Origin: Bolinopsis microptera
Lineage: Eukaryota; Ctenophora; Tentaculata; Lobata; Bolinopsidae
Length of the DNA stretch: 64,000 nt
Direction of reading: 5' to 3'
NCBI RefSeq assembly: GCF_026151205.1
Contig: NC_087084.1
Location: 6,069,538-6,133,537, forward strand
Below the pieces are notes generated by a model that saw only the letters and a program-made list of their open reading frames with translations, was not told the DNA's origin and searched no databases. Below, one piece after another: positions 1 to 26,713 of the stretch; the first letter of the stretch is position 1, and the number at the start of each line of letters is the position of its first letter. A program made the position numbers and the translations under genes.

Positions 1-321
1 TCCTAGGCTGAGAGTGTAGCCGGTGTTGCAGATACAAGCAGTGCCGTTAATGTGTACTCGTCCATTCTTGCAAGAGACGTGTTGCGTCTCTGGCGATGCT
101 GCCGTCTGTCCAAAAACTCCTGAGATGATTTGTTTAAATCCTTTAAACTCATCTTCTCGAAAAAGTGATGGCTATTTGGATAATTTGGCTGATAATCACA
201 ACTTGAATCTGTGTGGCACCACAAACAAGCTTTCTTTTCACCTTTTTCCGTTAATCGTACCTGTTGTTAAGATCTGTAGATTTAAGATCGCCACTAGAAG
301 TATCGTTAAAGAAGGCTGCAT
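1..321 (-). CDS. Small half-EGF/TM membrane protein, cluster member 1 (partial)
   Basis: The 3' part is cut off by the window edge. Exon 1 (261-321, 61 nt) encodes a signal peptide, M-Q-P-S-L-T-I-L-L-V then a hydrophobic run ending L-T-T-G. It is followed by a GT donor, a 141-bp phase-1 intron and an AG acceptor. Exon 2 (from 119 down to the edge) reads VFGQTAASPE, then CKNGRVHINGTACICNTGY and SLG, which is the start of the four-cysteine module seen in the other members. The fourth Cys, TM helix and tail lie outside the window. By linker and cysteine spacing it belongs to the subfamily with members 4, 5, 6 and 8. Seen: exon structure and homology to neighbours. Inferred: a surface protein. 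Function unknown. Confidence 0.72.
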
Positions 322-330
322 GGCTGTGAT

Positions 331-811
331 ATTTTGATTGCGGTGATAGAAAATAGAAATCAACTATTCAGCAATGATGGAATTGGAAAAGGTAACAAAC
401 GATAAATAATGATATTATGAGCTTCTTTTAACTTTTCTTAAATCAAAGTGTTGATACTTCCCTGCTTCCCACAAGTATTAAGACTAATATAAACAGTGCA
501 AAATCACGGGAAGACGACGAACACCAAAGACTAAAGGAGTAAAGAATATATGATAGCACATATTATACTTTCTAAGGAAAACCGTTTTAGGTTGTGCGGC
601 ATGTCATCTAGACACATTGATTGTCTGACATTCTCTGCTCTTTTGTACCAGAATTGAATTCCATTAATTTAATCTCCGATAGTGTTGGCCATAATCTCAT
701 CGACTGCAGATGACTCACGATTTCCTGTACAATAGTCTTATTGTAATCCTGCGAACAAACAGCCGTGTAAATCAGGGCGCGGTAAATCGCGGTATTATAA
801 TTTACTGCGTA
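331..811. other. Intergenic, no gene seen
   Basis: This is upstream DNA of cluster member 1. I see no open frame with coding character and no clear repeat; it ends at the terminal repeat of the next element. Confidence 0.5.
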
Positions 812-2190
812 TTACCTTACTCGGGATTATTATGACCGGGATTAAGTGGTGGGTTTAGGGTAATTTCGCCATATTTTTCCCGAACCACATTTTCACCGGT
901 CGTTAATAAACCCGCCTACTCAGCTTTTAGGGTTCCCAAGGGGTATGGGTGCTCATATTTTAATCGTTGTCTTATATTCACTAAAGAAGACTATTGGGAC
1001 ACTTGTTGTAGGTTTTTCGACTTCATTTGGCTAAAATTGCAAAAAATTCACCTTTTTGCCCAATTCTTGTCATATATCCTTATTGTCAAATTTGATTTAA
1101 ATACCTTGGCGGTCCGAAAATATGGCGAAATTGAACAAAAACCGTCACATTTCGGACGTCACAGAAAATAAGGGTGTTTTTCATCATTTTGTTTTCTGAC
1201 ACAAAGGAAATTCAAAATTTTCTAAAAATCGGTAAAATCATGTTGAAACAAAATGAAACTTATAAATCGATTTCTTCATCTTCCTCTAAGGGGTCCGGCT
1301 CGACTCTTTCAGTTTCACTTATTGAGTTTGGTATTAAATTGTTTATCTTGACTTAGTCTCTTATAAGACGTTTATGTTAGCACATAAATGTAATTTATTG
1401 TAAATTTAAAAGGTATTACTTGACATTAAATTCATCATGGAATATTGTGTTTATTTGTCCCACCATCATATCACTAACTTTTCAAGAACAAAATGAATCG
1501 ATGAAGCCACACTAATTGGAATAAGCTAAAAATAATGCGACGGATTCTATTACGACGACCGAAATTTTGGCGGTCCGAAAATATGGCGAAATTTCGGGAA
1601 AACCGTCGCATTTCGTACGTTATGAAAAAGTCTTGTAAGGTAGGCCAATTTTTAATTTCTTAGGTATTGACTATCTCTACATAATGAAATAGGACTCAAA
1701 GTAAAAGTAACAGTTAAATTAAAACTTGAATTAATTAAAACTGATGAAAGGGATAATCCAGATGAAGATAACGAAGATGATTACAACTTATTGGAAGACT
1801 AAACAGCTCTCCCTTTATCTTAATATCGATCTGGTTGTTACGCTTCAAATGTTAAAAATTATTTTCCATATAGTTTGATTAACCACGAGTCATTATTTCT
1901 GTCTACGTTCAACAATTATTGATAATTCGACTTGTTTCACAAGTTTTAACAATGCGAAAATTTCGAAATAAAAAATTTCTAAATAAAAAATTTCTAAATA
2001 AAACTTGCTTATCTCTAATAAGGAAATTTACATCTGAGACAAAATTTTTGAATCTAAAATTGAAAGGTTGGACACCGGTAAAATGGCGACCGGGAAAATG
2101 TGGTGGGTTTTGAGCAATTTCGCCATATTTTCCCGAACCATATTTTAACCGGTCGTTAATAAACCCGTCGTAATAATCCCGAGTAAGGTA
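812..2190. mobile_element. Non-autonomous DNA element with inverted ends
   Basis: The left end reads TTACCTTACTCGGGATTATT. The right end is its reverse complement (TAATAATCCCGAGTAAGGTA). Just inside both ends lies a related block with the motifs TTTCGCCATATTTT, CCCGAACCA and ACCGGTCGTTAATAAACCCG. A second internal direct repeat (GGCGGTCCGAAAATATGGCG and following bases) occurs near 1108-1164 and 1568-1624. No transposase frame is visible, so it would need an enzyme supplied elsewhere. Superfamily unknown; I did not find a convincing target-site duplication. Confidence 0.6.
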
Positions 2191-2928
2191 GACATTTCTG
2201 ATCAATTACTCACTTTTACTGAAATAGTCCACTGTTTTAAAAGTTTAAAGAAAGTCAACAAACCGAAGCATCAGCATAGATAATTATTTTCTATATTGAA
2301 AGTTATATAATTCGTCAAGGCGGCCGAGGCTTGCAGTATTTGTTCAGTAATAAGTGGAATTTTTAGCACAAAAACATTCCATTCATTGTTCATCTTGGTA
2401 TTAATAAAAACCGTCATTTACTCTCATTGGTATGATTTTTTAGTTAGCTATCTATGATCTATGATCGACCAGTGAAATGCCGAGCTTTTCAAGAAACTTT
2501 ACTCATATATTTCGAACTTACACATTTATTCTCTAAGAAGTAAAAATACGTTATATAGTTATATCACGCATGTATTACTTATATTCAATATAAAAATCCA
2601 TCCCAAGATCCCTTCATTTATTAAAATGTAATATGTACACAATATTAATAATATAGAACAAATGAAACAAAGTTCAAATGGCAAGTTCTACTTCAAGTTT
2701 CATACTATAGCAATTAAACTAAAGCAATTGTCAATATTAATAATGTATTTATCTTAACCTGAAGTTCGATAAGATATTATGATGTTTTATCGAAAACTCT
2801 TCGAAATGCTTTGATTCATAGCAGTATCAGCAATATTAACCGTCAACATTTCAAAGAAACAGATACAAAATGTTTCGAACTAAAACCTTGTATATTGAGG
2901 TATTTAAGTTATATATACGTATGTGAGG
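2191..2928. other. AT-rich spacer, no gene seen
   Basis: Low-complexity AT-rich sequence between the inverted-end element and a minisatellite. Only short chance frames are present. Confidence 0.5.
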
Positions 2929-3032
2929 TATTTGAGGTATACGTATGTGAGGTATTTGAGGTATTTGAGGTATACGTATCATGTGGGGTATTTGAGGTAT
3001 ACGTATGTGAGGTATTTGAGGTATTTGAGTTT
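2929..3032. repeat. Minisatellite, GAGGTATTT/ATACGTATGT units
   Basis: Tandem copies of GAGGTATTT and GAGGTATACGTATGT-type units. Translated frames across it are repetitive and are not taken as genes. Confidence 0.8.
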
Positions 3033-3424
3033 TGATAGTGCTCCTTAATGACTTCAACATTATGCAACATTTGTTTCTCTTATCTTATCTTTCCCTGCAG
3101 ATTATTGAGTGTTTTTAATCAGATAGTTTTTGAGTTGTCATCTCATCAACACATGCACCCTTCTTAAGAGGAATTGTACAAGATTCAGCTTCAAGATCAC
3201 AAACACTAGTTTTCAGCCACGGACAGAGCATTTCCTTACTCACTTATCACTATCCAAATTAGAAGATATCACTAACATCACTGATTCCAGCATACCACGA
3301 CAAATGTCTCCTACAATACTATCCATATCTTTCATCACTTGTAGTAAACCTTAACTGTTAATCTCACCATCCACCTTCAGCTCATATTTCCTCACACTAG
3401 ACAGCGATTCTCCGTTTTAACCGG

Positions 3425-4266
3425 TCAATTTGGTGGCATAAGATTCTCAATTCCACCTCTCTTCCTCTCGTGATGCATTATAAGACCAGAGATCACCAGC
3501 AGTGCCACAACTATCACACACACCGAAACGAATATGAAGAAGGCTATTGTCTTGACACATGTTCCCAAGCTCAGATGGTATCCGTCGTCGCACACACAAT
3601 CAGCACCCTTCGCAACGTATCCTTTCTTACATTGGTCCTTCTCCTCCTCTGGTGAACTTTCCTCTTGTCCGTAAACTCCTGATAAAGTGAATATTTATTT
3701 AATATGGTTTATATCTTTTCTACTCATTTTCTAACAGAGTTACCATGTAGATTGTATAAGGTGCGGTGATATTATGTAAATAGTGCGATTCCGCACCTGC
3801 CTAAAACTGTTTTATGTGCGGCAGATTTGGGGGCAAAAAACACCACAACTATGCCGAAAGATTCGCTAAATTTGTAGCCTTTAGGTGCTCTCAGGTTTCG
3901 TCGTTCAACAGCGTACTGTACAGTATATAACATTGGCTTACACCAGTAATTTACAAGGTTACTGTACTATAATTTACACCGAGTTGCCTGACAATTCAAG
4001 ATGTATAATTAATGTAGAATTATCCTCTTAGAAGGTTTTACAATCAGATGGCCTAGATGACTGGGTTTGTTGAGCTGGTGATGAGCATGATTGGGGCAGA
4101 CTATTATTTAAATTAACTTTATAACATTACTAGTTTCAGTTCAGAGGAATAATTTGCTTCAAGTTTCAAGCTAAAATTCCAGATTTGAAATTAAATTAAT
4201 CGTACCTATGGTTAGGATCTGTAGATTTATGATCACCACTATTAGTATCGTTAAAGCAGTCTTCAT
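3425..4266 (-). CDS. Small half-EGF/TM membrane protein, cluster member 2
   Basis: Complete gene of 104 aa. Exon 1 (4206-4266) is 61 nt and encodes the signal peptide MKTALTILIVV...LTIG. Intron 527 bp, phase 1. Exon 2 (3425-3678) gives VYGQ, an acidic linker (EESSPEEEKD), then C-x10-C-x-C-x10-C (CKKGYVAKGADCVCDDGYHL and SLGTC). A TM helix of about 22 residues follows (IAFFIFVSVCVIVVALLVIS), then a short basic tail HHERKRGG...PPN. The start ATG was chosen because all members share this 61-nt exon. The N-terminal half should lie outside the cell and the tail inside. Closest relatives are members 3, 7 and 9 (subfamily with an acidic linker and a tail starting LIMH/RHE). Function unknown; it could be a receptor, a ligand precursor or an adhesion or recognition protein. 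Confidence 0.85.
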
Positions 4267-4446
4267 AGCTGCGATGTATTTGTAACGATTAAAACAAAAC
4301 AACAAGGAATTCAGCAAGGCTGTACCTACTTACTTACTGATGAACATTCTCACAATCAACACTCCTATTGGCAAATAATCCAACAAGTTTCTTTCTATTT
4401 AATATATCTTTGTATAATATAATATGACTTTCATTCCAACAATCAC

Positions 4447-4950
4447 GGTATAGTTACTGGCTAGAAGCCAGAACAGAACTAACCACAGTGTGGTTACTTG
4501 CTACAAGCCATAACAGAACTAACCAGTGTGGTTACTTGCTACAAGCCATAACAGAACTAACCACAGTGTAGTTACTGACTACAAGCCAGAACAGAACTAA
4601 CCATAGCATAGTGTGATTACTGGCTACAAGCTAGAACAGAACTAACCACAGCGAAGCTTTTCAGTACAAGCCAGAACAGAACTAACCACAGTGTGGTTAC
4701 TGGCTACAAGCCAGAACAGAACTAACCACAGTGTGGTTACTGGCTACAAGCCAGAACAGAACTAACAACAGTGTTGTTACTGGCTACAAGCCAGAACAGA
4801 ACTAACAACAGTGTTGTTACTTGCTACAAGTCAGAACAGAACTAACAACAGCGAAGCTATTCAGTACAAGCCAGAACAGAACTAACCACAGTGTGGTTAC
4901 TGGCTACAAGCCATGACAGAACTAACCACAGCGAAGCTATTCAGTACAAG
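4447..4950. repeat. 40-bp minisatellite with internal hairpin
   Basis: About a dozen copies of a roughly 40-bp unit containing GGCTACAAGCCAGAACAGAA and AACCACAGTGTGGTT. The second block is itself a palindrome. Units vary (some carry AGCGAAGC), so the array is not freshly amplified. It lies upstream of member 2. Confidence 0.9.
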
Positions 4951-6189: not shown

Positions 6190-6860
6190 AGAGGACTGGG
6201 AACTGATAGTTTTTAGGAGTAGTTGTAGTTCGCTGCTGAACTGGATGGTTTTTAGGAGTAGTTGTAGTTCGCTGCTGCACTAGATGGTTTTTAGGAGTAG
6301 TTGTAGTTCGCTGCTGCACTGATAGTTTTTAGGAGTAGTTGTACTTGTAGTTCGCTGCTGCACTGGATGGTTTTTAGGAGTAGTTGTAGTTCGCTGCTGC
6401 ACTGGATGGTTTTTAGGAGTAGTTGTAGTTCGCTACTGCACTGGATGTTGTTAAGGAGTAGTTGTAGTTCGCTGCTGCACTGGATGGTTTTTAGGAGTAG
6501 TAGTAGTTCGCTGCTGCACTGATAGTTTTTAGGAGTAGTTGTAGTTCGCTGCTGCATTAGATGGTTTTTAGGAGTAGTTGTAGTTCGCTGCTGCACTGGA
6601 TGTTTTAAGGAGTAGTTGTAGTTCGCTGCTGCACTGATAGTTTTTAGGAGTAGTTGTAGTTCGCTGCTGCACGGATAGTTTTTAGGAGTAGTTGTAGTTC
6701 GCTGCTGCACTGGATGTTTTCGGGAGTAGTTGTAGTTCGCTGCTTCACTGGATGGTTTTTAGGAGTAGTTGTAGTTCGCTGCTGCACTAGATGGTTTTTA
6801 GGAGTAGTTGTAGTTCGCTGCTGCACTGGATGGTTTTTAGGAGTAGTTGTAGTTCGCTGC
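6190..6860. repeat. 39-bp minisatellite
   Basis: About 16-17 copies of a unit of roughly 39 bp with the core TTTTTAGGAGTAGTTGTAGT and TCGCTGCTGCACTGGATG, with small indels that shift its reading frame. Three open frames on the minus strand are only translations of the repeat and are not called as genes. Confidence 0.92.
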
Positions 6861-7090
6861 TGGCAGGTCTCATCATGAGTTGTTCTTGCTTCCTTAGCTT
6901 GTGGTAATTGGTTGATATCAGTATCAGTGTTTGGGTGCTTCTAGTAGTAGTGGATGTTTGCAAGGCTATACTAATGGGTTGTTTTTCTGATTAACAGGGT
7001 GCTGACAATAAGATTAGAGTTGGTCGTTTTTAGGACTTAGTTAGTAGATATATACAGATATCAAGAGAATAGAGGCTGAATAGTTGTTTT

Positions 7091-9447
7091 GAGGAAGTAG
7101 CGGGTGGCTCCGATCATTATTTGGTACGGGGTCAATTTAGAGTCAAACTTATGGCAGTTCAAAAAATGAACGCCTCTCGTAGGATATCTCCAGCAATTGA
7201 GAATCTTAGAGATCAGTCCAAGGTTGAAGAGTACTGCATTGCTCTTCAAAATCGTTTTAGCTGCCTACCAATGGAGGAGAATCTTGATGGAGAATGGACA
7301 TTAGTTAAGGATACTATTAAAGAAGTGTCTATGGAGGTACTGGGTGAGCGCCCCCGGCGCAGAAGGCAACAGCATTTGTCTCAGGAGACAAAAAGCCTTA
7401 TTGCAGAACGCAGTAAGATTAAACAGATGGCGCCTAGTGACAACAACAATAGGAGTGAGTATTCTCGGGCCAACAAACTTGTCAAAAAGAGCTGCAGGAA
7501 AGACGACGAGAATTGGGCTCTTAGAGTTGCAGCAGATCTGGAAACAGCTGCTGTCCATGGCCGGCAAAGGGAAGTCTGGCAACGGATAAAAACACTGTCC
7601 GGTAAGAAGAATCGAAAATCAACTGCTGTTAGAGACAAATCCGGGAAGTTGATTGCTGATCCCTCTGCTCAGAGAGAGAGATGGGGAGAACATTTTTCGG
7701 AGCTATTAAACCCTCCTCCCACGAATGCGGATATGTCTGACCTGGACCAACTTGAAGTGGTTCCATGCTTTCCCTATCTTGGTGATGGTGATGGTCCCCC
7801 CACTAGACTTGAGATTTTAAACTGTCTCAAAAAATTGAAGAACCACAAAAGTGCTGGGATTGACGAAATCTCTAATGAGCAGTTAAAGTATGGGGCAAGT
7901 GGTCTTGTGGATAGGATGGAGAAATTGTTCTCTAAAGTTTGGAATTCAGAAGCAGTGCCTGACGACTGGTTGAAAGGCATCGTGATAATTGTACCAAAGA
8001 AGGGTGATACCTCTCATTGCTCCAATAATAGGGGGATCACTCTAAGATCTACAGCATCTAAACTGTATCAAATCATCATATTACAACGCATGAGTGACGG
8101 TTTAGAAAGTTTGCTACGAGACAATCAGTGTGGGTTTAGAAAGAACAGATCATGCATTGATCAGATTTATTCACTCCGCACTATTATACATAACTGCATT
8201 GAATATAATCTCCCCCTGTATGTAAATTTTGTGGACTTCAAAGCAGCTTTTGATTCCATCGACAGGAATTATATTTGGAAAGCTTTCAGTCATTATGGCC
8301 TGCCATGTAAATACATTCGAATAATACAGGCATTCTTTAATGGAACTGTTAGTGCTGTTAGACACAATCGTGAACTATCAGAATGGTTTGAAGTAAGTTC
8401 AGGCAGTGGCCAAGGAGACATTCAGGGTCCCCCACTTTTTAATGTCTGCCTCAATGTGGCTGCTGAGAGAACAGAAAGCAACAAAGTGGTGTCCCACGGA
8501 GCGGTTCTTCAAAGATCTATCAGTCCGCTTGTTGGTGATATCACTGTGTTAGATACAGATTATGCAGATGACATGGCTGTACTGGATAACAGCGAGGAAG
8601 GTCTTCAAGAAACAACTGACCTTTTGTGTATGTATGGTGCCCAGGGAGGTCTTAGAATCAATGGTAAAAAGACTGAGGCTATGGTCATTGGTTAAGCAAC
8701 CTCTCAACGGCCATACACGAAAGAAGCCACAGTGAACATCACTGTTGAAGACACGCCAGTGCAGCAAGTTAGTGACTTTACGTACTTAGGTACAATTATT
8801 TCCAGCGACGGTACTATCGACCGTGAGCTGTCAGCTAGGATTCAGAAAGCTTCCGGAGCCTTCAATCAACTGAGTAATATATGGAAAAACCGCAACATCC
8901 AGTCTTATACAAAGATCAGGATTTATAAGGCAGCGGTTTTGACAATATTGTTATATGGTAGTGAGGTTTGGAACACAACAAAAAAGCAGCTACATCGCTT
9001 TGAGGTGTTCCATCAGCGTTGCTTGGGGAGAATACTTAGGATAAGATGGCTTGATCGGGTTAGAAACACTGAAGTGCTGGAGCGTGCAAAGATAAATCCA
9101 GTAGAGACGTACATAGGAGCAAACCGCCTGCGTTGGTTTGGCCATGTCACCAGAATGCCAGACACTAGGCTTCCTAAGTACCTGCTTAACTGGACCCCTG
9201 CCCATGGGAGAAGATCTAGGGGCCGTCCAAGAAAGAACTGGAGGAAATGTTTGCTGGAAGATGCTGCAGCGTTTACAGGAAACACTGACATAGACCTAGA
9301 AGGAGCGAGCGAGATGGCTAGTGACCGCAAACTTTGGAGGGAGATGATACGTCACAAACGGGAGTTCATTGGTGCAGGCCACTCGAATGATTGAGGAGAC
9401 CTAATCAAGTACAAGTACAAGTAGTGCGGGTGTTAAGGTGTTTTCAG
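7091..9447 (+). mobile_element. 5'-truncated RTE-like LINE with flanking 18-bp repeat
   Basis: The insertion is bounded by the 18-mer GGCTGAATAGTTGTTTTG at 7074-7091 and 9448-9465, read as a target-site duplication. Inside lie only the last residues of an endonuclease domain (GGSDHYLV, containing the usual SDH motif), then the reverse transcriptase and C-terminal region. A short tail of (ACAAGT)n-like repeats is followed by about 25 bp before the duplication. Loss of the 5' part with intact flanks is typical of target-primed reverse transcription. The copy looks fairly young because one stop codon is its only obvious break. Confidence 0.85.
7100..9394 (+). pseudogene. RTE-like reverse transcriptase ORF, one in-frame stop
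   Basis: The frame runs from the end of the endonuclease domain through a linker to the RT domain. RT motifs seen: DEISNEQLKYG, KGIVIIVPKKGDTSHCSNNR, QCGFRKNRSC (finger), the motif A region VNFVDFKAAFDSID, GSGQGDIQGPPLFN (motif B), and the catalytic TDYADDMAVL (motif C). The C-terminal part has the usual LINE tail motifs YLGTIISSDG, NRLRWFGHVTRMP and RRSRGRPRKNW. A TAA at 8693-8695 interrupts the frame between the RT and C-terminal parts; the same frame resumes at once and continues to 9394. Known of the family: RT copies element RNA at a nicked target. The missing endonuclease and the stop make this copy inactive. RTE clade is my best call; a sister clade is possible. Confidence 0.88.
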
Positions 9448-10479: not shown

Positions 10480-11087
10480 TCAACATTTCGAATTTGATCG
10501 ATTTTTGATTGATCGACATTTCCCCCGTTCTAAATGCATTATAAGACCAGAAAGTAGAAGCAATGCTACCACTACCACACAAACTAAAATGAATATAATG
10601 AAACAGATTGTATTGACACATTTTCCTAAGCTCCGGTGATAGCCGGTGTCACAGATGCTGCATCCTGAGTCAGTGCCGTTTTTTACGTATCCATTTTTTA
10701 CGTATTCGTTTTTTACGTATCCTTTCTTGCATGGATTTTTAATGCATTCAGTGCCGTTTTTTATGTATCCTTTAAGTTTCTTGCATGGATTATCTTCTAA
10801 TTCTTCTTCCTCTGATGAACCTAAAACTCCTGAGTGGAAACAGTTTTAATCCTTTGTAAACAATAATTGTTCTAATGATGAATTATTTGGTAAAGTTGAT
10901 AACTGCAACTTGACTCTGTTTAGGCAACAAAAAAGATTGTTCGGGATGTTCTGCAGGGAAGGCTTTGTTTCAAAGTTTAAAATCCTCATGTTCAATTAGC
11001 GACCCTTTATTAATCAATAATCATACCTGTTGTTATGATCTGTAGATAGATAATTACCACTATTAGTATCGTGACAGCAGACTGCAT
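10480..11087 (-). CDS. Half-EGF/TM membrane protein, cluster member 3 (expanded ectodomain)
   Basis: Complete, 136 aa. Exon 1 (11027-11087, 61 nt) is a signal peptide (MQSAVTILIVV...ITTG). Intron 197 bp, phase 1. Exon 2 (10480-10829) has VLGSSEEEELEDNP, then a first half-module CKKLKGYIKNGTEC joined to a second, CKKGYVKN. An EYVKN-GYVKN insertion follows, then GTDSGCSIC, DTGYHRSLGKC, a TM helix (IFILVCVVVVALLLLSG) and a basic, serine-rich tail ending SKC. The ectodomain thus has the front half of the cysteine module duplicated, plus a small KNGY/KNEY repeat expansion, giving seven cysteines instead of four. Closest relative: member 9. Likely surface protein, role unknown. Confidence 0.83.
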
Positions 11088-11125: not shown

Positions 11126-11416
11126 CAAAAATACTGAACTTGCTGAAGAAAAAGTGATATTTACTACAATGATAAAACAAATCAACGAAGCAGTCAATGA
11201 TACTGAATTTGCTGAAGAAAAAGTGATATTCACTACAATGATAAAACAAATCAACGAAGCAGTCAATGATACTGAACTTGTTGAAGAAAAAGTGATATTC
11301 ACTACAATGATAAAACAAATCAACGAAGCAGTCAATGATACTGAACTTGCTGAAGAAAAAGTGATATTCACTACAATGATAAAACAAATCAACGAAGCAG
11401 TCAATAATACTGAACT
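11126..11416. repeat. 69-bp tandem repeat, four copies
   Basis: Four near-identical units with the core GAAGAAAAAGTGATATTCAC and AATCAACGAAGCAGTCAATG. Because 69 is a multiple of three, every frame stays open. I take these frames as by-products rather than genes: there is no start context, no homology, and both strands are open. Confidence 0.9.
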
Positions 11417-11665
11417 TCCGGGTACCGGGTCAAGATATCAGTCAGCTTTAAATTAAATGATGCGATTAAATAATCTAATACAAGACACTAGTATGTCAAG
11501 GTCAAAATAAATACAAAACCTCTAAGTGTGGTTAATCATTTAATTAGGTAATGTAAGACAAGCCTGCTAATGTGTCTCTTCTTACAGTGTAACTTTACCA
11601 GAACCACAGTGTAACTCACTAAAAGCACCAACAAATAAAGATAATGGTACATTAATGTAATACAC

Positions 11666-12140
11666 ATGAGCACTGAACAGTGTCCAGTACGACAGCACAT
11701 ATGCACTGAACAGTGTCCAGTACGACAGCACATATGCACTGAACAGTGTCCAGTACGACAGCACATATGCACTGAACAGTGTCCAGTACGACAGCACATA
11801 TGCACTGAACAGTGTCCAGTACGACAGCACATATGCACTGAACAGTGTCCAGTACGACAGCACATGTGCACTGAACAGTGTCCAGTACGACAGCACATAT
11901 GCACTGAACAGTGTCCAGTACGACAGCACATGTGCACTGAACAGTGTCCAGTACGAGAGCACATATGCACTGAACAGTGTCCAGTAAACAGTATACAAAT
12001 AAAGATAACTCCTGATCCTGGTACGACAGCACATATGCACTGAACAGTATCCAGTACGACAGCACATATGCACTGAACAGTGTGCAGTGAACAGTGTACA
12101 AATAAAGATAACTCCTGGTACGACAGCACATGTGCACTGC
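11666..12140. repeat. 33-bp tandem repeat array
   Basis: Ten-plus copies of a 33-bp unit (core TGCACTGAACAGTGTCCAGT and ACGACAGCACATA) with two interruptions carrying ATAAAGATAACTCCTG. The unit contains the near-palindrome CACTGAACAGTG. Since 33 is a multiple of three, long frames are open on both strands and are not taken as genes. Confidence 0.92.
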
Positions 12141-14506: not shown

Positions 14507-15113
14507 TTAAGTTGAAACAGCGTTACCGAGTAGGGCGAGAGCATTAGTAGTGATTTTTGAGGGAGGCAGTAACTTGCATGGGGCTGTATCTGCAAGTTCA
14601 TCGTCACTTGCACGACCAGAATTTTGGAAATGGCTGAATCTCCGCATTATTTGAATTTGATTGGATTCAGTTGTGTTGACATGTTTCCCTTCACGGTACA
14701 TTACAACGCTCGAGACCAGAATAAAAGCCACCACCATCGCCCCTACTATGATGAAACAGGAGAAGTAAACTGTATTGATACATTTTCCCAAACTCAGATG
14801 GAAGCCAGTCTCGCAGATACAGTTGGTTCCGTTGAGTACTTGTCCTTTCTTGCAAGAGATCTTTTGCGTCTCAACTGAACTCAGCTCTTGTCCTAAAACA
14901 TATGGAGTAGATAATTATTCACTATAATATTTGTCCCTCAATCAAACAATGAACAGGTCCATGAAATCTACTCACAGCAATTTAGTTTAAGCATGTTGTG
15001 TAAAACTCATGTTCTTTTGACCTCAAGACTCAGTTATGATTGTGGAACATACCTGTTGTTATGATTTGTAGATTTAAGATGACCACTAGTAGAATCGTTA
15101 GAGAAGGCTGCAT
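14507..15113 (-). CDS. Half-EGF/TM membrane protein, cluster member 5
   Basis: Complete, 148 aa. Exon 1 (15053-15113, 61 nt) is a signal peptide (MQPSLTILLVV...IITTG). Intron 160 bp, phase 1. Exon 2 (14507-14892) reads GQELSSVETQKIS, CKKGQVLNGTNCIC, ETGFHLSLGKC, TM (FIIVGAMVVAFILVSSVVM), then a tail YREGKHVNTTESNQIQIM...CKLLPPSKITTNALALLGNAVST. The ancestral acceptor, aligned with member 6, would be 9 nt further upstream. Its AG is mutated here, and the next AG (GTTTTAG then GACAAG) restores the same frame while removing three residues. The intron is almost identical to that of member 6, so this is a recent duplicate. Function unknown. Confidence 0.85.
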
Positions 15114-16358: not shown

Positions 16359-16924
16359 TCATTTATCAATGTTAAGATTTCCACTTGAAACAGCATTACT
16401 AAGTAACGCGAGAGCGTAAGTTGTGACTTTGGAGGGAGGTGGTAACTTGCATGGGGACTGAATCATGACTTGGATTTGATTAGATTCTGTTGTATCTAAA
16501 ATTGTCCCTTCACGGTACATGAAAACACTGGAAACCAGAATAAAAGCCACCAACACCACCCCTACTGAAATGGAACACGTGAAGTAAATTGTATCGATAC
16601 ATTGTCCCAAGTTTAGATGGAAGCCAGTGTCACATATACAAGCAGTGCCGTTTTGTACTTGTCCTTTCTTGCAAGAGATCTTTTGCGTCTCCATTAAACT
16701 TTGTTCTTGTCCTAAAACACCTGAGATATTCACTACAATATTTGTCCCACAATCAAACAATGAACAGGTCCATGAAATCTACTCACTGCAATTTAGTTTA
16801 AGCATGTTGCGTAAAACTCATGTTATTTTGACCTCAGGAGTCAGTTATGATTGTGAAACGTACCTGTTCTTATCACCTGTAGATTTAAGATTACCACTAG
16901 TAGTATCGTTAAAGAAGGTTGCAT
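16359..16924 (-). CDS. Half-EGF/TM membrane protein, cluster member 6 (mosaic)
   Basis: Complete, 140 aa. Exon 1 (16864-16924, 61 nt) is almost identical to exon 1 of member 4 (signal peptide MQPSLTILLVV...VIRTG). The 143-bp phase-1 intron matches member 5 instead. Exon 2 (16359-16720) gives VLGQEQSLMETQKIS, CKKGQVQNGTACIC, DTGFHLNLGQC, TM (SISVGVVLVAFILVSSVFM), and a tail YREGTILDTTESNQIQVM...CKLPPPSKVTTYALALL and SNAVSSGNLNIDK. The tail lacks part of the member 5 sequence between QIQVM and CKLP. Upstream similarity to other members stops a few bases before the start codon, so its promoter is different. Function unknown. Confidence 0.86.
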
Positions 16925-18204: not shown

Positions 18205-19065
18205 TCACCCGAAATAAGTTAAATAACTCTCCCGCTCAAGGTGCATGATGACACCGGATAACACCAGTAATACTACCACTACCACACAAACTAGAATAAA
18301 TATAAGGAAAGAAATTGTATTGACACATTTTCCTAAGCTCCGGTGGTAGCCAATGTCACAGATACACTCGGTGCCGTGCGGTACGTATCCTTTCTTCAAT
18401 TTCTTGCACGGATTCTTTAAGCTTTCCTCCTCCTCTGATGAACCTTTGTTTTGTGCTAAAACTCCTGAAGTGGGAACAGTTTGAATCCTTTGTACACAAT
18501 AATTGTTTTAATGATTTGGTACGTATACTTTCTTACATGAGATCTTTTCCTTCTCTGAATGTCGTTCCGATACCCCTATAAATGGATATACCTTAGTTCT
18601 CAAAACTGCTGCAAATTAGATTAATGGAAAATAAACAAGGCCAAATGTCCCCCCAAATATTTGGCACACAAACTTATTGAGCCCAAATGTTTGGCACATC
18701 AAATTTTGGGAACTAAGGTAGCTTTATTTGTTTTGACAACAGGAAAACAGAATTATTCGGAATGTTTAATCAATGCTTAATTTGTGTTAAAGTTAAAATT
18801 CTTTATTTTCAATCTCGAACTTTGCTGTTGAGGGGTCGTTCACATATTATGTAATCACTATTTGGCCAATTTGTATCCCCCACCTCCATAATCAGTATTA
18901 CACATAGCTATTGTGTCCAAATTACACTAGCGTAATCATTTGGAAACCCCCTCCCCCCTCAGCTAATTACGTAACAATATGCGAATGACCGCTAATCGTA
19001 CCTGATGTTACGCTCTGTATATTCATGATACCCACTAGTACAAGTATCGTTAAACCAGGCTTCAT
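18205..19065 (-). CDS. Half-EGF/TM membrane protein, cluster member 7
   Basis: Complete, 107 aa. Exon 1 (19002-19065, 64 nt) is a signal peptide (MKPGLTILVLVGIMNIQSVT-SG). Intron 537 bp, phase 1; it contains a MITE and a stray piece of another family exon. Exon 2 (18205-18464) reads VLAQNKGSSEEEESLKNP, CKKLKKGYVPHGTECIC (three extra residues before the second Cys), DIGYHRSLGKC, TM (FLIFILVCVVVVVLLVLSG), and a very short tail HLERESYLTYFG. It belongs with members 2, 3 and 9. The tyrosines in the tail (SYLTYF) could be phosphorylated, but that is speculation. Function unknown. Confidence 0.83.
18518..18575 (-). pseudogene. Fragment of a cluster-family exon 2 inside the member 7 intron
   Basis: After an AG (TATAG), the minus strand reads GVSERHSEKEKISCKKVYVP. 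This is the linker and start of the cysteine module of the family. It stops where similarity to the intron of member 3 resumes, so it is a truncated leftover of an unequal exchange. It could also act as an alternative exon, but no donor in phase is obvious. Confidence 0.6.
18832..18991. mobile_element. MITE, ~160 bp, GGTCGTTCACATATTA ends
   Basis: Ends GGGGTCGTTCACATATTATG and, inverted, GGTCATTCGCATATTG...ACGTAAT. The internal blocks TAGCTATTGTGTC and TTACACTAGCGTAATC recur in the halves of the same MITE around the foldback element near 29.2 and 30.8 kb. It sits about 10 bp from the exon 1 donor of member 7, within its intron. Confidence 0.75.
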
Positions 19066-20250: not shown

Positions 20251-21436
20251 TTAGTTGTGATTTTGGAGGGAGATGGTAACTTGATCAGGCAGAATGATCG
20301 GCAAATCAGGCTCCTCAACTTCTGAACCCTTCCCGAACTCCCCAACTCCTGAGCGATAGGAAAACATTACAACACCGATGACCAGAATTAAAGCCACCAT
20401 CACCATCCCTATTGTAATAAAACTGAGTTTGAAACATTCTTCTAGATTGAAAGTGTATCCGGTGTCACGGACACAGTCGGTTCCGTTGTGTACGTGTCCC
20501 TCCTTGCAAGAGATGTTTTGTGACTCTGTTGGTGCTACTGTTTCTCTGCTAACTCCTGTAATGGATGATTAAAACAGTTATAAGCATTTCATCTTCCGAT
20601 TTGACCGGGAAAACCATACAAAATGTGGAAGATTTCGTATAACTAATATAAGCTTTTGGATTGAGAGCATAGATAGGGAGAACATGAGGATAAAGAAGGA
20701 ACAAGCATGGGGTGCCCTCAGCCCTACATACTTACATAGACTGAGTGTTATCCGGAAATCCAAACTTTCCAATAAGCTTATATCAAGATCAGATTGTCCA
20801 TTGCGGCATGCGAATCAGAACTGCTTCATGGATCAGAAACCTGGAGACTGACAAAGCTTCGGGAGAACTATTAGGACGGGGTATACACAATTATGTTGCT
20901 GGGCATCTCAAGGAAGTTCAAGGACAGGAAGGGCAACCTACCAAGGTTGTCGAACAAGATACGAAGCAGGAGATTGAAAATGGTGGGACACTGCATTAGA
21001 TATCCTGAGCTACTGGTCAGTTATATACTGATATACTGATATAGTCATAAGGGAACCTGTGCAAGTGTGCATGGTAGAACACAGTAAGGCAGACCGAAAT
21101 AAAGCAGAAATCTATTTTACTATGTTAGTGTTACTGTTTGGGATAAATTCTAAAGAGGAACTGCAAGCTCTGATGCGGGACAGGGATATACGGAGAGGGT
21201 TATCTGACGTAGATTGTACTTTCGACCTAGTAGTAGCAACGGTTCATTAAGCATAGGTTTTTACTAAAATATAGTTTTAATTTGAAACCAGGAAAACAAG
21301 ACAGATCGAAACGTTTTACAGAAGATTTATTTGCTTTAAAACTGAAATTCCTCTTTTTTGCCTCACTACTCGTACCTGTTGTTATGATTTGTAGATTTAA
21401 GATGACCACTAGCAGAATCGTTAAAGCAAGTTGCAT
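20251..21436 (-). CDS. Half-EGF/TM membrane protein, cluster member 8 (divergent)
   Basis: Complete frame, 121 aa. Exon 1 (21376-21436, 61 nt) is a signal peptide (MQLALTILLVV...IITTG); an in-frame ATG lies three codons upstream. Intron 820 bp, phase 1, the longest of the family. Exon 2 (20251-20555) reads VSRETVAPTESQNIS, CKEGHVHNGTDC, VRDTGYTFNLEEC, TM (FITIGMVMVALILVIGVVM) and a new tail FSYRSGVGEFGKGSEVEEPD. The third Cys of the module is Arg, leaving three. The tail ends in VTISLQNHN, while the +1 frame of the same DNA still reads KLPSPSKITTNAFILLNNAA, the old family tail. So a frameshift has replaced the tail. It may be decaying or newly adapted. Confidence 0.72.
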
Positions 21437-21439
21437 ATC

Positions 21440-22067
21440 AACCATGTAAAACTAGGGATGAAAATAAATTGACGAAAATTCACCAATATCATTTATCACT
21501 CTCTATAATCAAGGCTTTGGATTCTACAGAAGTAACGAATAGCACATGATGATTTATAATAATCTCTAAGAACGCCGGTTTAAATGACCTTTGGTTCTCA
21601 GTCATTTATCGCTAACAAAAGCACAATAAGTTCCAATGAAAGTCTCTTTTATGTAACCTAATTCGATAATTTATTATGGATACTTCTTCTCCATTGTTTG
21701 CTTACAAAAGAAATACCTGTATTTCCATTGTTTTCTAACAAACGAAATATTTATAGAAATCAACAGTTTCGCCTTTATTTGTTGTTTTTGTTATGAAGTT
21801 ATGAATACAAGAATTGTGAAGAAACACTTTCTCTGGAATGTTTTCTCTTAACGAAGTCAAACTTCCAGTACACCTCGATTGTGTCCTAACTCCTATGCCA
21901 TCCATAGATTAATAAGTATCCAGACAAAATTTCAGTCAAATCTGTGATTTTTGTTCCAGTTCCATCTTTAATATTTGAAAATTAGACAAAAAAAAGACAA
22001 TATTATTTTTCCATTTTGCAATGCTTTCTCCGGGAAAGAAACAAAGACATTCATATTGATATTTAAC
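21440..22067. other. Spacer, no gene seen
   Basis: Upstream DNA of member 8 and downstream DNA of the GPCR gene. No feature recognised. Confidence 0.45.
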
Positions 22068-23130
22068 TTAGCATGCGGTTATTTGTTCGCTCTGATCAGT
22101 CACCAATGTTCTCTTACTAATCTCTGATGCACCAACCTGCCTCTTCTGCAGAACCCGCCTCCCTCCCACAACCAACTCTACTACAAACCCTCTGAAACTG
22201 GGCACAGTCAAGCTGTATATGTAGAAGTTAGACATGACGTTAAGTAAGAGCAGGTACTTTGCAGCCCTCATGTAGGGAGCAAAAGTAAGAGGATCTAACT
22301 GGAAGGTAGTTCTCACGAAGTACCGCTCTGCAACGGAGTAAGCACCATAGGGGAGACTGGAGAGAAAGTAGACAATAGCAGTGGCGAGGACAGTCACCAT
22401 CCCTTGCCATCTGACCTGACCATGTGACCGTAGTGAAGCTCTCCTTGCTCTGATTAGGTGAACCAGTGTCCGCATAGTGGTCAGGAGTACTATTATGTTA
22501 GCTGACATGGCGAAGAAGAAGTGGATCCGGCGGAGGAACTTGGTCCAGATTTCTGCGGTGAACTTGTAGTCGCAGCTGTAAATCCTGTAGTCGTACTGTA
22601 CGTCAGACTTGTCCACTATCAACATTGAGACAGGGGGACCCAAGCCAGATCAAAACACACACGAGGTTTGCTCTTGTCTTGGTGAAATACCTGGTATGTA
22701 GAGGGTACTCCAGGATCAGGAGCTTGCTAGAGGTGAGCAGGCACACCAGATTAGCACTGCTTCCAAAGGCAGCGTAAACAACATAGACCCTGGAAACACA
22801 TATGAAGTGAGACATAATCTCACAGTCTGCAACCAGTGACAGTAAGTTAGGGAACACGTACACCACAGACAGGATGAGGTCACAGACCGCTATATGCTGG
22901 ATCACTGCCACCAGGAACTTGTGCAGCTTAAACGCGTTGAACTTGATGGACCCAACCAGGATAGCAGTGTCTCCGAGGAGAGAGGAGAAGAGGACGAGGG
23001 TGTGGTATCCTGCCCAGAGGTACCTTTCTGTGGGGTTGTGTATTCCATATATGGTATGGTTAGAGTAGTCAGGTAATGTTGCCATGGTAATGTTATCTGG
23101 AAATTTTGGGGTATTGTTATCAGTGATCAT
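22068..23130 (-). CDS. Class A-like GPCR with one frameshift
   Basis: Single-exon receptor of about 350 aa. The N-terminal frame (22603-23130) starts MITDNNTPKFPDNITM and has NIT and NHT glycosylation sites. It runs through TM1 (HTLVLFSSLLGDTAILVGSI), TM2 (AVIQHIAVCDLILSVVYVFP), an extracellular loop with C, TM3, and SKLLILEYPLHTRYF in place of the DRY region, to TM4 (VCVLIWLG). The second frame (22068-22643) carries the Cys-containing loop (YRIYSCDY), TM5, a basic third loop (LIRARRASLRSHGQVRWQ), TM6, TM7 with SNFYIYSL in place of NPxxY, and a basic tail. The frames join inside the GGGTCCCCC run near 22632-22640, where one base too many is present. That is either an assembly error or a young pseudogene. 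Known: such receptors couple to G proteins. Ligand unknown. Confidence 0.82.
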
Positions 23131-23325
23131 GCGCAGAGATGATATTTTCCAGCGTGCTAACTGAATGAAGCTAAATTGTACGTGTAGTAATATTGTATTA
23201 CAATCAATTCTTCAGGATTATAACATAACACTGACTTGTCATTTTTGATACGTCGCTCATTTAGTCTCAGTAAACTATAGGTAATTATATAATACTCCAT
23301 TGCCAAAGTAAATCTTTGCATCTGA

Positions 23326-23592
23326 TCGGTAAATTATTGTCATTTGTCAAAACAATCAGGCCCCATTTACAAACAGCTGGCCAAATCTGCTACCATTTTA
23401 AGTGGGCACCAGACGCAATACATCCACAGGGTAAACTTAATGTTCATCATTAATTACAAATCTATCAAACTAACTTATAAACAGCCCAACCATAACATTA
23501 ACGCAAAGATATATGACAATGTTCAACTATCCTACATCACTGGGAAGGTACACTAAATGAAAACATGGTGCGAATGTGAACCATTTTCTACT
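23326..23592. repeat. 267-bp direct repeat, copy 1
   Basis: Nearly identical to 24971-25237 (one base difference noticed, ACGCAAAG/ACGTAAAG). It lies downstream of the ORF1-type gene on the minus strand, so that gene is bracketed by the two copies. Both copies contain an open plus-strand frame (MSKQSGPIYKQLAKSATILS and on) preserved by their identity; coding status is uncertain. Confidence 0.9.
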
Positions 23593-23902
23593 GATTGATT
23601 GGGAACTGGGTTTTACTACCCCAGTTAATGTTTACTAAAAATAGATATTGAACAGCAATTTAAAATTGTAAATATACATATGAAAGTATGTATAAAGGCT
23701 GCACCAGCTGACTAAGAGTAATGAAACAGCGATCTCTGAACAAGATTCGCCTAAAACCAGATTAACCCCTTGAAAACTATACAGTTTTGTATAAGTGAAA
23801 TAAAATGGTTAGATCCTTCGACAAAAACTAAGCACACAGAAGACAAATACTCATAGAGCTAAACTTTTTGATTTGCTCACAACACGAAAAATATTTAGAA
23901 AC

Positions 23903-24778
23903 TCATTTTTGCCTCTCAAGGCTACAAATCTTCCCTTCACGAATGAAGAGTTTTTTGTCCTTCTCAATACCAGCTCTTCTTTTTAGCTCTAGGACAAGTT
24001 CTTTACGCTGAGCTCTCTCTTCTGCTGTACGATCTGGAGCTAGGAACACCCTCTTAAATCTCTCTGTTCCACACAGTTTACTCGACTTCTTCAGTATTTG
24101 TTGCACAATCGAAGAACTGGAAAAGGAAACTTTAACCGGTCTTGCAGCTGACGGTGATTTCTTGCCGATTCTACAAGCCTCAACTCGGGGTTTCTCTCCC
24201 AATGATTCCAATACTTCAGCGACTTTTGTATTGATCTCCTCATTGACCTCCTCGCATAGCCCAAAGACCATGATGTTCCTACCCAACTCCTCCTCCAAAG
24301 CAATTTGCTTGGCAACTGATTTAATGGATTCTGTAGAAATCGCAGCTGAGTTCTCGATACTACCGGATTTCACCACATCGCTAAAACTTTGTTTAACTGA
24401 ACTGACTTCTTTCTGAACACCCTCAAAAAACTCAGTCTTGAGATGTTCGTTAAACTCTATTGCCTTAGAAAGTCCTTCTTTTGCAGATAATAGTTGCTCC
24501 TGTAGTTTTATAACTTGGTCCTGCAGCTGTATCATACTAGACTGATACTGACTAACGTGTACCCTCTGATTTATGATCATGTTATGCTGTCTCTCAATGA
24601 GCTGCATGGCTTGCAAAAACTTTGCCGCTAAATCCCCCTTGTTACCAATTTTGTTCACGCTCTCATGATTTAGTTCTTGAACACAATCGACTTTACACTG
24701 TTTCACGGTATCAAGTAGGAACTTTTGTCCATCGGTCTCTACTAAGTCAAATTTGAAACGTTCTGCTACTGTCGGCAT
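23903..24778 (-). CDS. LINE ORF1-type RNA-binding protein
   Basis: Uninterrupted 291-aa frame. Residues about 60-135 are a coiled coil (IERQHNMIINQ...LQDQVIKLQEQLLSAKEGLS). Residues about 170-225 resemble the RNA-recognition region of non-LTR retrotransposon ORF1 proteins (RNIMVFGLCEE, VEACRIGKK, RPVKVSFSSSSIV), followed by the basic C-terminal KELVLELKRRAGIEKDKKLF. Known of the family: trimeric RNA-binding chaperone of the element. No endonuclease or RT follows on either side, so this is an isolated ORF1 copy. The frame is intact and bracketed by 267-bp direct repeats. A host gene derived from ORF1 is also possible. Related, broken copies lie near 56.9 and 59.4 kb. Confidence 0.8.
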   Translation of the reverse strand: MPTVAERFKFDLVETDGQKFLLDTVKQCKVDCVQELNHESVNKIGNKGDLAAKFLQAMQLIERQHNMIINQRVHVSQYQSSMIQLQDQVIKLQEQLLSAKEGLSKAIEFNEHLKTEFFEGVQKEVSSVKQSFSDVVKSGSIENSAAISTESIKSVAKQIALEEELGRNIMVFGLCEEVNEEINTKVAEVLESLGEKPRVEACRIGKKSPSAARPVKVSFSSSSIVQQILKKSSKLCGTERFKRVFLAPDRTAEERAQRKELVLELKRRAGIEKDKKLFIREGKICSLERQK

Positions 24779-24911
24779 ATCGTTGATCAGTTATACACAG
24801 TGTATAGTATCCGTAAAACAAGCTGTAGCTGCGAGTATGAGATAGTTGTTGAGATGATAAGCGCTGCTGATAACAGAGGCACAAATTAGCAACGAAATAA
24901 AAGCGTGTATA

Positions 24912-25287
24912 ACTCACCAGTGGTATTGGTAATATGGCACTTCAGCAATTATATTGTAGCCCCCGGTAAATCGGTAAATTATTGTCATTTGTCAAAACAA
25001 TCAGGCCCCATTTACAAACAGCTGGCCAAATCTGCTACCATTTTAAGTGGGCACCAGACGCAATACATCCACAGGGTAAACTTAATGTTCATCATTAATT
25101 ACAAATCTATCAAACTAACTTATAAACAGCCCAACCATAACATTAACGTAAAGATATATGACAATGTTCAACTATCCTACATCACTGGGAAGGTACACTA
25201 AATGAAAACATGGTGCGAATGTGAACCATTTTCTACTCACCAGTGGTATTGGTAATATGGCACTTCAGCAATTATATTGTAGCCCCC
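24912..25287. repeat. 323-bp partial tandem duplication (B-A-B) next to poly-C
   Basis: A 53-bp block (ACTCACCAGTGGTATTGGTA...GTAGCCCCC) at 24912-24964 recurs at 25235-25287, with the 267-bp repeat between. The unit is thus 323 bp, duplicated with a truncated second copy that runs into C23 at 25290-25312. Confidence 0.88.
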
Positions 25288-25289
25288 AG

Positions 25290-25312
25290 CCCCCCCCCCC
25301 CCCCCCCCCCCC
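25290..25312. repeat. Poly-C tract
   Basis: 23 uninterrupted C residues directly after the duplicated block. A second, shorter C-run lies at about 54234-54250. Length may be unreliable in the assembly. Confidence 0.9.
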
Positions 25313-25319
25313 ATAACAT

Positions 25320-26160
25320 AACGCTTTAGTGCATATTGCATATGCATTGTCGCAATCTTCCACTAGAGAAAACAACACGGTCTTTGGCACCTCAGATAAT
25401 TCTTGGCAAGGGTGCCTCCAACACGTGTGTGAGACTATTAGGTCAGAGATCACCGTGGATGTGTCAGATTCTGATATTTGAAGTTGCAAGATTTGATCAT
25501 TCTTATATTTAATATTTCCATTCTGACAATGCCTGTACTCGATATCTATTATCTATGCTACCCTCAGATTTTTTGGTTGCATACAAGGTTTTTTCCCGCT
25601 GTTATGGATTTTTCACATAATTATGGAATCTTTTCTGTCATTGATTGAATTAAAAGATTTCAATAAAATGTTTTAAAAACACTCATATTAATGCTTTTCA
25701 TACAAAGTTACAACAAAGTCTTCATGTAATATATCCTGGGTTTGGACAGGATACTACCCGCTTAAAATATTTCCATCGCGTTACATAATATTAATACTCA
25801 ATAAATGCAATAGATTTGTAGTGTTGTAATTAGTTTAAAACTAATTACTTTTAAAAAGTTATATCAACCTATAAAAAAACTCGACTATTCGGTAATCTTT
25901 CGATGGTCGCATAACACACGGTTAACGCACGTACTTAACGCGTGCCTTAACCGTACGTTATGTGACCATCGACAGTTTACCGAATTGCCAAAAATTCAGG
26001 TATTATAAAAGTCTCTTCTGTAAAAAGTTTATTCAATTTTCATAAGATGAAATTAAACAGGACTGTTAACATTTAACCCTCTGAGTTGATTCAACATTGC
26101 TTAGTACTTCAGAAGTGCGAGAACGTAACTTATGCGGTTTGGGTCGGAGGCCAATTGTCT
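25320..26160. other. Spacer with a short hairpin, no gene seen
   Basis: A foldback (AACTCGACTATTCGGTAATCTTTCGATGG versus its inverse near 25965, around GTTAACGCACG/CGTACGTTA) at about 25880-25985. Otherwise nothing recognised. Confidence 0.5.
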
Positions 26161-26167
26161 GGAGCTC

Positions 26168-26713
26168 TCAATGATTTGAATTTGATCTGTTTCTGATTGA
26201 TCGACATTGTTCCTTTTCATGCCGCATTATAAGACCAGATATCACCAGCAGTGCCACAACTATCACACATACTGAAATAAATATGAAGAAACAAATTGTA
26301 TTGACACATTTTCCTAAGCTCATATGGTAGCCGATGTCGCAAATACTGCATTCTGATTCGGTGCCGTTTTTTACATATCCTTTCTTGCATGGGTTTTTAA
26401 TGCATTCGATGCCGTTTTTTACGTATCCTTTCTCGCATGGGTTCTCTTGCTCCTCTAGTGATCTTGGCGTGTGTCCAGAAACACCTGAATAGATATAATC
26501 TGAATAATCGGCCTTTGTAGTTTGTACACATTTTCTAATTATCAATTTGTGAAATGAATTTTAAAAAGCTTGAATGATTGAATTGTTGATTTGGGGGATA
26601 ATCTCAGTCTGTTGTAATTCCGGAAGCCAAAAGTGTGTTATCGTACCTGTTATTATGATATGTAGATTAGACATAATCGCTAACATTATCGTTAAACTTA
26701 ATGCAGACGGCAT
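26168..26713 (-). CDS. Half-EGF/TM membrane protein, cluster member 9 (double module)
   Basis: Complete, 127 aa. Exon 1 (26647-26713, 67 nt) is a signal peptide (MPSALSLTIMLAIMSNLHII and ITG). Intron 162 bp, phase 1. Exon 2 (26168-26484) reads VSGHTPRSLEEQENP, a first half-module CEKGYVKNGIECIKNP, a second CKKGYVKNGTESECSIC, then DIGYHMSLGKC, TM (FFIFISVCVIVVALLVISG) and tail LIMRHEKEQCRSIRNRSNSNH. The tail closely matches member 3, and the doubled front half-module is shared with it, so the two descend from one expanded ancestor although about 15 kb apart. It is separated from member 8 by the GPCR and ORF1-type genes. Function unknown. Confidence 0.85.

Follow-up and report, generated by a model that had tools for sequence, protein, structure and literature searches.

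The window analysed here, a 64,000-nucleotide stretch of the ctenophore Bolinopsis microptera genome (contig NC_087084.1, positions 6,069,538 to 6,133,537), was found to carry within its positions 1-26713 nine related two-exon genes, G1 to G9, all on the minus strand and arranged head to tail. The common plan consists of a signal-peptide exon 1 of 61-67 nt, a phase-1 GT-AG intron of 141-820 nt, and a single exon 2. This plan had been proposed in a sequence-only reading of the same DNA and was borne out for all nine genes, each of which has a GT donor and an AG acceptor in phase 1. The signal-peptide exon measures 61 nt in G1 (261-321), G2 (4206-4266), G3 (11027-11087), G4 (13220-13280), G5 (15053-15113), G6 (16864-16924) and G8 (21376-21436), 64 nt in G7 (19002-19065), and 67 nt in G9 (26647-26713); an additional in-frame ATG is present 9 nt upstream in G4 and G8. 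Exon 2 is located at 1-119 for G1, which is truncated at the window edge and ends about 290 bases further left (L009), and at 3425-3678 (G2), 10480-10829 (G3), 12530-12966 (G4, a 165-aa protein), 14507-14892 (G5), 16359-16720 (G6), 18205-18464 (G7), 20251-20555 (G8) and 26168-26484 (G9). The acceptor of G5 is displaced downstream with the frame maintained.

DNA profiles of exon 1 and exon 2 were run with nhmmer against 84 kb, consisting of the window and 20 kb to its left. Nine copies of each exon were recovered, exon 2 of G3 and G9 in pieces, and the next match after the members had an E-value of 0.88 for exon 1 and 4.6 for exon 2. One extra short relic, comprising the beginning of one more exon 2, was detected on the minus strand within the G7 intron (18515-18576; E 1.1e-5). 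Averaged over pairs, ungapped identity is 0.73 over 58 nt in the conserved exon 1 and falls to 0.33 in the intron and 0.37 in the 5' flank, neither of which is conserved. We interpret the locus as a family of real genes that arose by tandem duplication at one site, and we are highly confident of its anatomy with respect to both structure and clustering.

At least six relatives, P0001 to P0006, were found among 5.8 billion protein sequences. P0006, encoded by a 1026-nt contig, corresponds to G1 with the intron excised exactly and spans the exon junction, with 3 differences in 156 residues (98% identity). Because the intron is missing, we regard this contig as a probable transcript; it may instead be a processed gene copy. 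At least one splice junction, that of G1, is thus probably transcribed, which counters the possibility that no member yields a spliced transcript. A closest database protein exists for six members. Five of these pairs have a tree support of 0.89-0.996, while that of G5 with P0002 is weak (0.31), and members with a database relative mostly appear to pair one to one. Since one protein search scored just the 7996 candidates with the most words in common with the query, and since G5 as a single-member query retrieved P0001 and P0002 alone, absence of the family from other animals is not established.

Within the genome itself, clear matches were confined to this cluster and one stretch on C8 (C8:11143706). 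The latter aligned with window positions 22172-29720 with 89.7% identity over 7883 columns, including 535 gap columns versus 279 mismatches; as a gap-ridden copy of that region it was rejected as a dispersed copy and dropped from the member count, and it is most likely an assembly artefact, in which sequence of the alternate haplotype was left uncorrected and assigned to C8. A genome search with the P0003 query gave 49 matches at E-values up to 10. The best one outside the cluster and C8 was C2:19053694 (E 0.008), a TNFR/ephrin-receptor-like gene, and weak matches on C5, C4, C9, C10, C12 and C13 (C13:7340950) had E-values of 0.03 or worse. Matches on C3 fell within long tandem-repeat frames. 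An exon-1 DNA query of the genome recovered six of the nine known copies and gave no match outside the cluster; the three missed copies show the limited sensitivity of that search. As to the position of the genome among animals, a full-length glutamate-receptor frame matched vertebrate kainate receptors first by whole-sequence score. Its ligand-binding part alone matched ML032222a of Mnemiopsis best (230 bits; next 193), and frames of this genome reach 81% identity to ML032222a over 113 residues, a value that speaks against Mnemiopsis itself. A sea anemone, tunicate or mollusc origin, considered at first, was rejected on this comparison.

In each of the nine proteins a hydrophobic stretch is present at the N-terminus and a second one follows the cysteines, with one uncharged helix per protein. 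They are probably small, type I membrane proteins; topology, disulfides and localisation are here predicted from sequence. The ectodomain is about 44-74 residues in size. Its loosest part is a stalk of about 15 residues with both substitutions and indels, and the cysteine module that follows directly abuts the helix. The motif C-x10-C-x-C-x10-C, initially ascribed to all nine genes, is exact in G2, G4, G5 and G6 and does not hold in the other five. The first cysteine gap is x11 in G1 and x13 in G7. Four cysteines are present in six of the nine proteins; the third cysteine is lost in G8, leaving three; and G3 and G9 have six, the N-terminal half of their module being repeated internally, with the spacing C4-x2-C5.

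The tree splits the members into subfamily A, consisting of G1, G4, G5, G6 and the probably decayed G8, and subfamily B, consisting of G2, G3, G7 and G9, with a support of 0.999. Among B ectodomains the repeat number varies, with two units in G9 and P0005 and at least four in P0003, and the B stalks contain an acidic run within ectodomains near neutral overall. As to the tails, measured from the end of the most hydrophobic 19-residue segment, the short tail described earlier was confirmed for subfamily B (17-23 residues) but not for G1, G4, G5 and G6, in which the tail is 53-72 residues long. This long tail is conserved and ends with ALxLLxNAVS, followed by SGNL in G1, G4 and G6. Shortening of the B tails apparently arose from changes of an ancestral frame or stop. 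The tail of G8 is 36 residues, and the expected tail is present in another frame at 20282-20199; G8 is therefore probably decayed, unless an assembly indel lies at the site.

The defects of G8 (third cysteine and tail frame), the relic exon in the G7 intron, and the truncated B tails would all be expected if most of the cluster were duplicates in decay that now do little. Eight of the nine genes, however, retain an open frame and an even cysteine count in the ectodomain, all nine retain their splice sites, the pN/pS of the cysteine module is below 1, and P0006 looks like a transcript. General decay is thus improbable.

The comparison of dN/dS along the ectodomains proposed in the sequence-only reading was performed between paralogues as pN/pS, for four genes each of A and B and with G8 left out, and gave no sign of ectodomain diversification. 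For the cysteine module, pN/pS was 0.34 (0.15-0.77) in A and 0.25 (0.13-0.45) in B, values that derive from heavily changed synonymous sites (pS up to 0.63) and from pooled, non-independent pairs, and that indicate that, from one paralogue to another, the module has evolved under purifying selection. The stalk gave 0.59-0.68, the B helix 0.25 (0.12-0.40), and the A tail 0.53 (0.41-0.68). Constraint was not clear for the A helix (0.61; 0.37-1.05), and the B signal peptide gave a value above 1 (1.28; 0.76-3.25). Exchange among the gene copies is likely.

These values bear on the proposal, made in the same reading, that the cluster serves in self/non-self or microbe recognition, the proteins being variable surface receptors with diversifying ectodomains and signalling tails, and the tail-less forms being decoys or co-receptors. 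The tandem cluster, the loose and indel-prone stalk, the differing repeat number in B, and the presence of both long-tailed and truncated subfamilies agree with it. Hydractinia Alr and Botryllus fester/BHF are allorecognition loci with Ig or Sushi domains, and resemble the present locus as tandem clusters of single-pass surface proteins. Neither domain was found among the best 25 of 26 families in the Pfam tables of our members, in which, unlike those systems, the ectodomain is small and the module is under apparent purifying selection. In addition, the family occupies just one nine-gene locus, five members form well-supported one-to-one pairs with database proteins, and none of the nine tails contains an ITAM- or ITIM-type motif, the one ITIM-pattern match being located in the G3 signal peptide. 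With the module under purifying selection and the database pairs mostly one to one, variable recognition is unsupported, and we consider it unlikely.

No family was assigned by searches of Pfam, NCBIfam and PDB sequences. The best Pfam matches (E about 0.003; DUF7332, DUF1218 and Giardia VSP, each in few members) look like chance matches of helix and cysteines, and the best E-values otherwise were 0.014 for NCBIfam and 0.52 for PDB sequences. That none of the three collections gave a clear assignment to a well-described family supports the initial view of a lineage-restricted family of small membrane proteins. The signals obtained, weak as they are, point to EGF/TNFR-type cysteine modules. The EGF_2 pattern is C-x-C-x2-[GP]-[FYW]-x(4,8)-C, and a fitting ending, C-x-C-x2-G-[FY]-x6-C, was detected in six of the nine members (absent from G3, G8 and G9). 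With this ending, and with the module adjoining a single helix, the proteins resemble the C-terminal half of an EGF-like domain. In contrast to a complete domain, the four-Cys members are without the first loop, and the six-cysteine order C..C..C..C.C..C was found in no member, including the two with C4-x2-C5 spacing. Among the best 25 of 26 Pfam families, EGF profiles stayed short of the curated cut-off (Pvs28, EGF_MSP1_1, FXa_inhibition and cEGF; E 0.06-0.4).

A structure model of G6 exon 2, which is poor (mean pLDDT 61.3, pTM 0.29), consists of two beta-hairpins followed by a long helix, and an equally poor model of a six-Cys member (60.0 and 0.30) did not show the full EGF fold. By Foldseek with the G6 model, 16 of 24 PDB rows were titled EGF or TNFR-type, none of them significant; with this poor query, TNFR-type folds gave E-values of 2.7-9.7 at a probability of 0.47 or below, and DcR3 an rmsd of 1.2 over 34 columns at E 3.3 or worse. 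In a profile comparison, the C2:19053694 gene, with the Pfam domains Ephrin_rec_like and TNFR_ELAPOR1, matched the family with a probability of 47% and a pairwise E-value of 0.0002 over 23 columns. TNFR/ephrin-receptor-like proteins likewise have small cysteine modules next to a helix, but in an array and not singly, and the similarity is too weak to claim descent. RAMP, KCNE and FXYD proteins are small single-pass accessory subunits, to which our proteins may be likened in size, single helix and short glycosylatable ectodomain. Neither these families nor a TNFR/ephrin-receptor-like profile appeared among the best 25 of 26 families in the members' Pfam tables.

In the EGF/TGF-alpha architecture, a signal peptide is followed by one EGF-type module, a helix and a short tail. 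The parts of the present proteins stand in the same order, and the EGF_2-like ending of six members would suit tethered growth-factor-like ligands for a receptor kinase on adjacent cells. This possibility is a doubtful one, since those six have two cysteines fewer than the six of an EGF domain, the module lies so close to the helix that little room is left for shedding, and no EGF family matched at threshold.

The structure of the genes, their clustering, the constraint among paralogues, the division into two subfamilies and the single intronless copy resembling a transcript are observations. Our best reading of them is that the locus encodes small half-EGF-like proteins tethered to the membrane, a family so far undescribed, with one subfamily having a conserved long tail and the other a truncated one. 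Each gene would give rise to a signal peptide, a loose stalk, a four- or six-Cys EGF/TNFR-like module held on the membrane, an uncharged helix and a cytosolic tail. The proteins may serve as tethered mini-ligands or as accessory subunits, located either on the cell surface or in membranes of the secretory system, and their conserved module, together with the helix in subfamily B, would touch a partner; the tail of subfamily A would reach cytosolic machinery, and B-type proteins would be without this connection. For the whole statement, including this mechanism, we estimate a probability of about 0.4.

Among the matches listed in a search of the ctenophore literature, with subscription papers mostly outside its coverage, no title or abstract opening described this family, which appears to be undescribed and fairly ordinary in being lineage-restricted. 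In Mnemiopsis, 29% of gene models (4,766/16,548) are ctenophore-specific (PMC6278862), so that an orphan ctenophore family by itself is expected. In the same study, the colloblast candidates are enriched in genes restricted to ctenophores, in signal peptides and in transmembrane domains (PMC6278862). This enrichment, and the acidic run in the B stalks, would fit structural or adhesive parts of secretory or glue cells such as colloblasts or mucus glands, the EGF-type knob packing cargo or anchoring glue. Single-pass proteins are, however, not reported there as enriched among the candidates (PMC6278862), and we hold such a role to be rather unlikely.

What makes the locus useful is the pairing of a long-tailed with a truncated subfamily, together with the variation in repeat number. 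Should the proteins prove to be genuine ligands or receptors of the cell surface, the nine two-exon genes at one locus would be a small set open to genetic work. With them one could study how minimal cysteine modules are used for signalling at the cell surface in ctenophores, which have been proposed to be sister to all other animals. A more specific arrangement, which we regard as a long shot, is that of receptor and decoy: the A proteins with the ALxLLxNAVS motif and the tail-truncated B proteins with varying CKKGYVKNGTECIKNP repeats would share a binding knob, and B would tune or block A. Such an arrangement, if true, would be an independently evolved, ctenophore-specific signalling set. 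The tails of G9 and P0005 are identical over 18 residues.

The window (C13:6069538-6133537) carries nine two-exon genes, all on the minus strand between positions 1 and 26713 and numbered G1 to G9 in order of increasing coordinate. The first exon, 61-67 nt long, codes for an N-terminal hydrophobic stretch and exon 2 for the remainder of the protein. The introns are in phase 1, with a GT donor and an AG acceptor in all nine genes; in G5 the usual acceptor is lost and one slightly downstream is used, with the frame unchanged. Searches with profiles of both exons over 84 kb (the window and 20 kb leftward) recovered the same nine copies of each, confirming the gene structure proposed in the sequence-only reading, and detected one short exon-2 relic in the intron of G7. 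Mean ungapped identity among the copies was 0.73 for exon 1, 0.33 for the intron and 0.37 for the 5' flank. Conservation of exon 1 beside an unconserved intron and 5' flank exceeds what chance or simple recent duplication leaves.

Each protein was also said to carry the motif C-x10-C-x-C-x10-C and a short tail, and both statements hold for part of the cluster only. The motif is exact in G2, G4, G5 and G6, but differs in G1 and G7, where the first gap is x11 and x13, respectively, in G3 and G9, where repetition of a segment like CKKGYVKNGTECIKNP brings the number of cysteines to six, and in G8, where the third cysteine is gone and the tail is out of frame. At least four CKKGYVKNGTECIKNP-like units were found in P0003, one of six database relatives (P0001 to P0006). 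After the best hydrophobic window, 17-23 residues follow in G2, G3, G7 and G9, but 53-72 in G1, G4, G5 and G6. In a tree of the nine cluster proteins and the six database proteins, subfamily A (G1, G4, G5, G6, G8) was separated from subfamily B (G2, G3, G7, G9) with support of 0.999. The long tails of A have ALxLLxNAVS in common, followed by SGNL in G1, G4 and G6. The short tail of B is probably a truncated derivative, since the tblastn alignment of G6 continues through the stop of G9 and a second frame of G3 resembles, by eye, an A tail. It is nevertheless probably in use, as judged from the 18 identical residues between the B tail of G9 and P0005.

The same tree paired cluster members with database proteins: G4 with P0001 (0.996), G2 with P0004 (0.995), G1 with P0006 (0.987), G9 with P0005 (0.945) and G3 with P0003 (0.887). 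The pair G5-P0002 was weak (0.309); P0002 is 81% identical to G5 as against 62% to G6. P0006 (156 residues), retrieved by a protein search with an alignment as query, corresponds to G1 with exons 1 and 2 fused at the predicted junction and with three substitutions. This one intronless copy lies on a 1026-nt contig, which would most simply be a transcript, with a processed copy of the gene as a possible alternative. P0001 to P0005, which start near the start of exon 2 or within it, resemble genomic exon frames.

Pooled pairwise pN/pS was calculated for four A and four B genes, G8 being left out, with codon-bootstrap 95% ranges. For this comparison among paralogues, not alleles, limited by saturation and non-independent pairs, the A values were 0.32 (0.08-0.89) for the signal peptide, 0.59 (0.32-0.91) for the stalk, 0.34 (0.15-0.77) for the cysteine module, 0.61 (0.37-1.05) for the helix and 0.53 (0.41-0.68) for the tail; the B values were 1.28 (0.76-3.25), 0.68 (0.39-1.20), 0.25 (0.13-0.45), 0.25 (0.12-0.40) and 0.69 (0.41-1.23) in the same order. 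The cysteine module is constrained between paralogues, while the stalk is looser than the module, with residues gained or lost. Pairwise values vary along the genes, suggesting that copies exchange sequence: for G4-G6, dS was 0 over the signal peptide and 0.57 over the module; the corresponding values for G4-G5 were 0.39 and 0.07.

Protein queries of the own genome (264.65 Mb) detected nine members, in this cluster, a count to be taken as a lower bound. The exon-1 DNA query, which itself recovers six of the nine known copies, gave no match outside the cluster in this genome. A single match on chromosome C8 was rejected as a further member, because it belongs to a stretch (C8:11139000-11148000) that duplicates window 22172-29720 with many gaps (7883 aligned columns, of which 535 are gaps and 279 mismatches), best explained as uncorrected haplotype sequence misplaced there. 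This copy is likely an alternate haplotype of raw-read quality put on another chromosome. Other matches were weak, from E 0.008.

The data establish the anatomy of the genes, their clustering, the constraint among paralogues, the two subfamilies and one intronless copy. As to location, partners and role, we infer that the proteins may be tethered mini-ligands or accessory subunits; the self/non-self or microbe recognition suggested in the sequence-only reading is considered less likely. This view is favoured because the ectodomain is small, the helix carries no charge, no ITAM or ITIM was found in the tails and the repertoire is small. A partner would be bound through the cysteine module, and in B through the helix as well; a function of the tail would be restricted to A. 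One YxxPhi motif is present in G1. The literature search gave no description of the family among the matches listed. Lineage-specific genes are common in ctenophores, accounting for 4,766 of 16,548 Mnemiopsis models (PMC6278862), and the cluster family would be a further example.

Several other elements were observed within the cluster. Minisatellites are located at 4453-4931, 6205-6862, 11131-11417 and 11663-12088, with units of 40, 39, 69 and 33 nt, respectively; the 69-nt array ends upstream of the first exon of G3, at a distance of 44 bases. Between G2 and G3, stop-interrupted reverse-transcriptase frames of a non-LTR-looking element occupy 7073-9394 on the plus strand, the first matching PF00078. 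Two hydrophobic frames at 22068-23211 (minus strand), without Pfam match, together appear by eye to be one seven-helix receptor gene split over two frames. Between G8 and G9, direct repeats of about 270 bases (25236-24969 and 23592-23325) surround a 295-aa frame (23903-24790, minus strand) without match in the Pfam scan, and the whole (23325-25236) looks like a terminal-repeat mobile element.

Beyond the cluster, frames at 30959-34759 lie between terminal stretches that are inverted relative to each other and about 140-170 bases long, perhaps representing a DNA transposon; neither of the two frames scanned matched Pfam. A 384-aa frame at 47083-48237 (minus strand), cysteine-rich and lectin/PAN-like by eye with a hydrophobic stretch close to its end, also gave no Pfam match. 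Actin exons lie at 49994-51617 (minus strand), PF00022 being detected for 51135-51617 and the frames at 49994-50960 being actin-like by eye, and a long (GTCT)n run of about 107 copies at 59731-60160. Elsewhere in the genome, 32 PF10613 matches mark glutamate-receptor frames; of these matches, 10 fall in open frames longer than 900 codons and several form tandem groups (for instance C12:11782391-11809362 and C3:15860547-15936263). For a full-length frame, vertebrate kainate receptors were top by score. The best PDB match of the ligand-binding part was ML032222a, a Mnemiopsis protein, to which frames of this genome show up to 81% identity.
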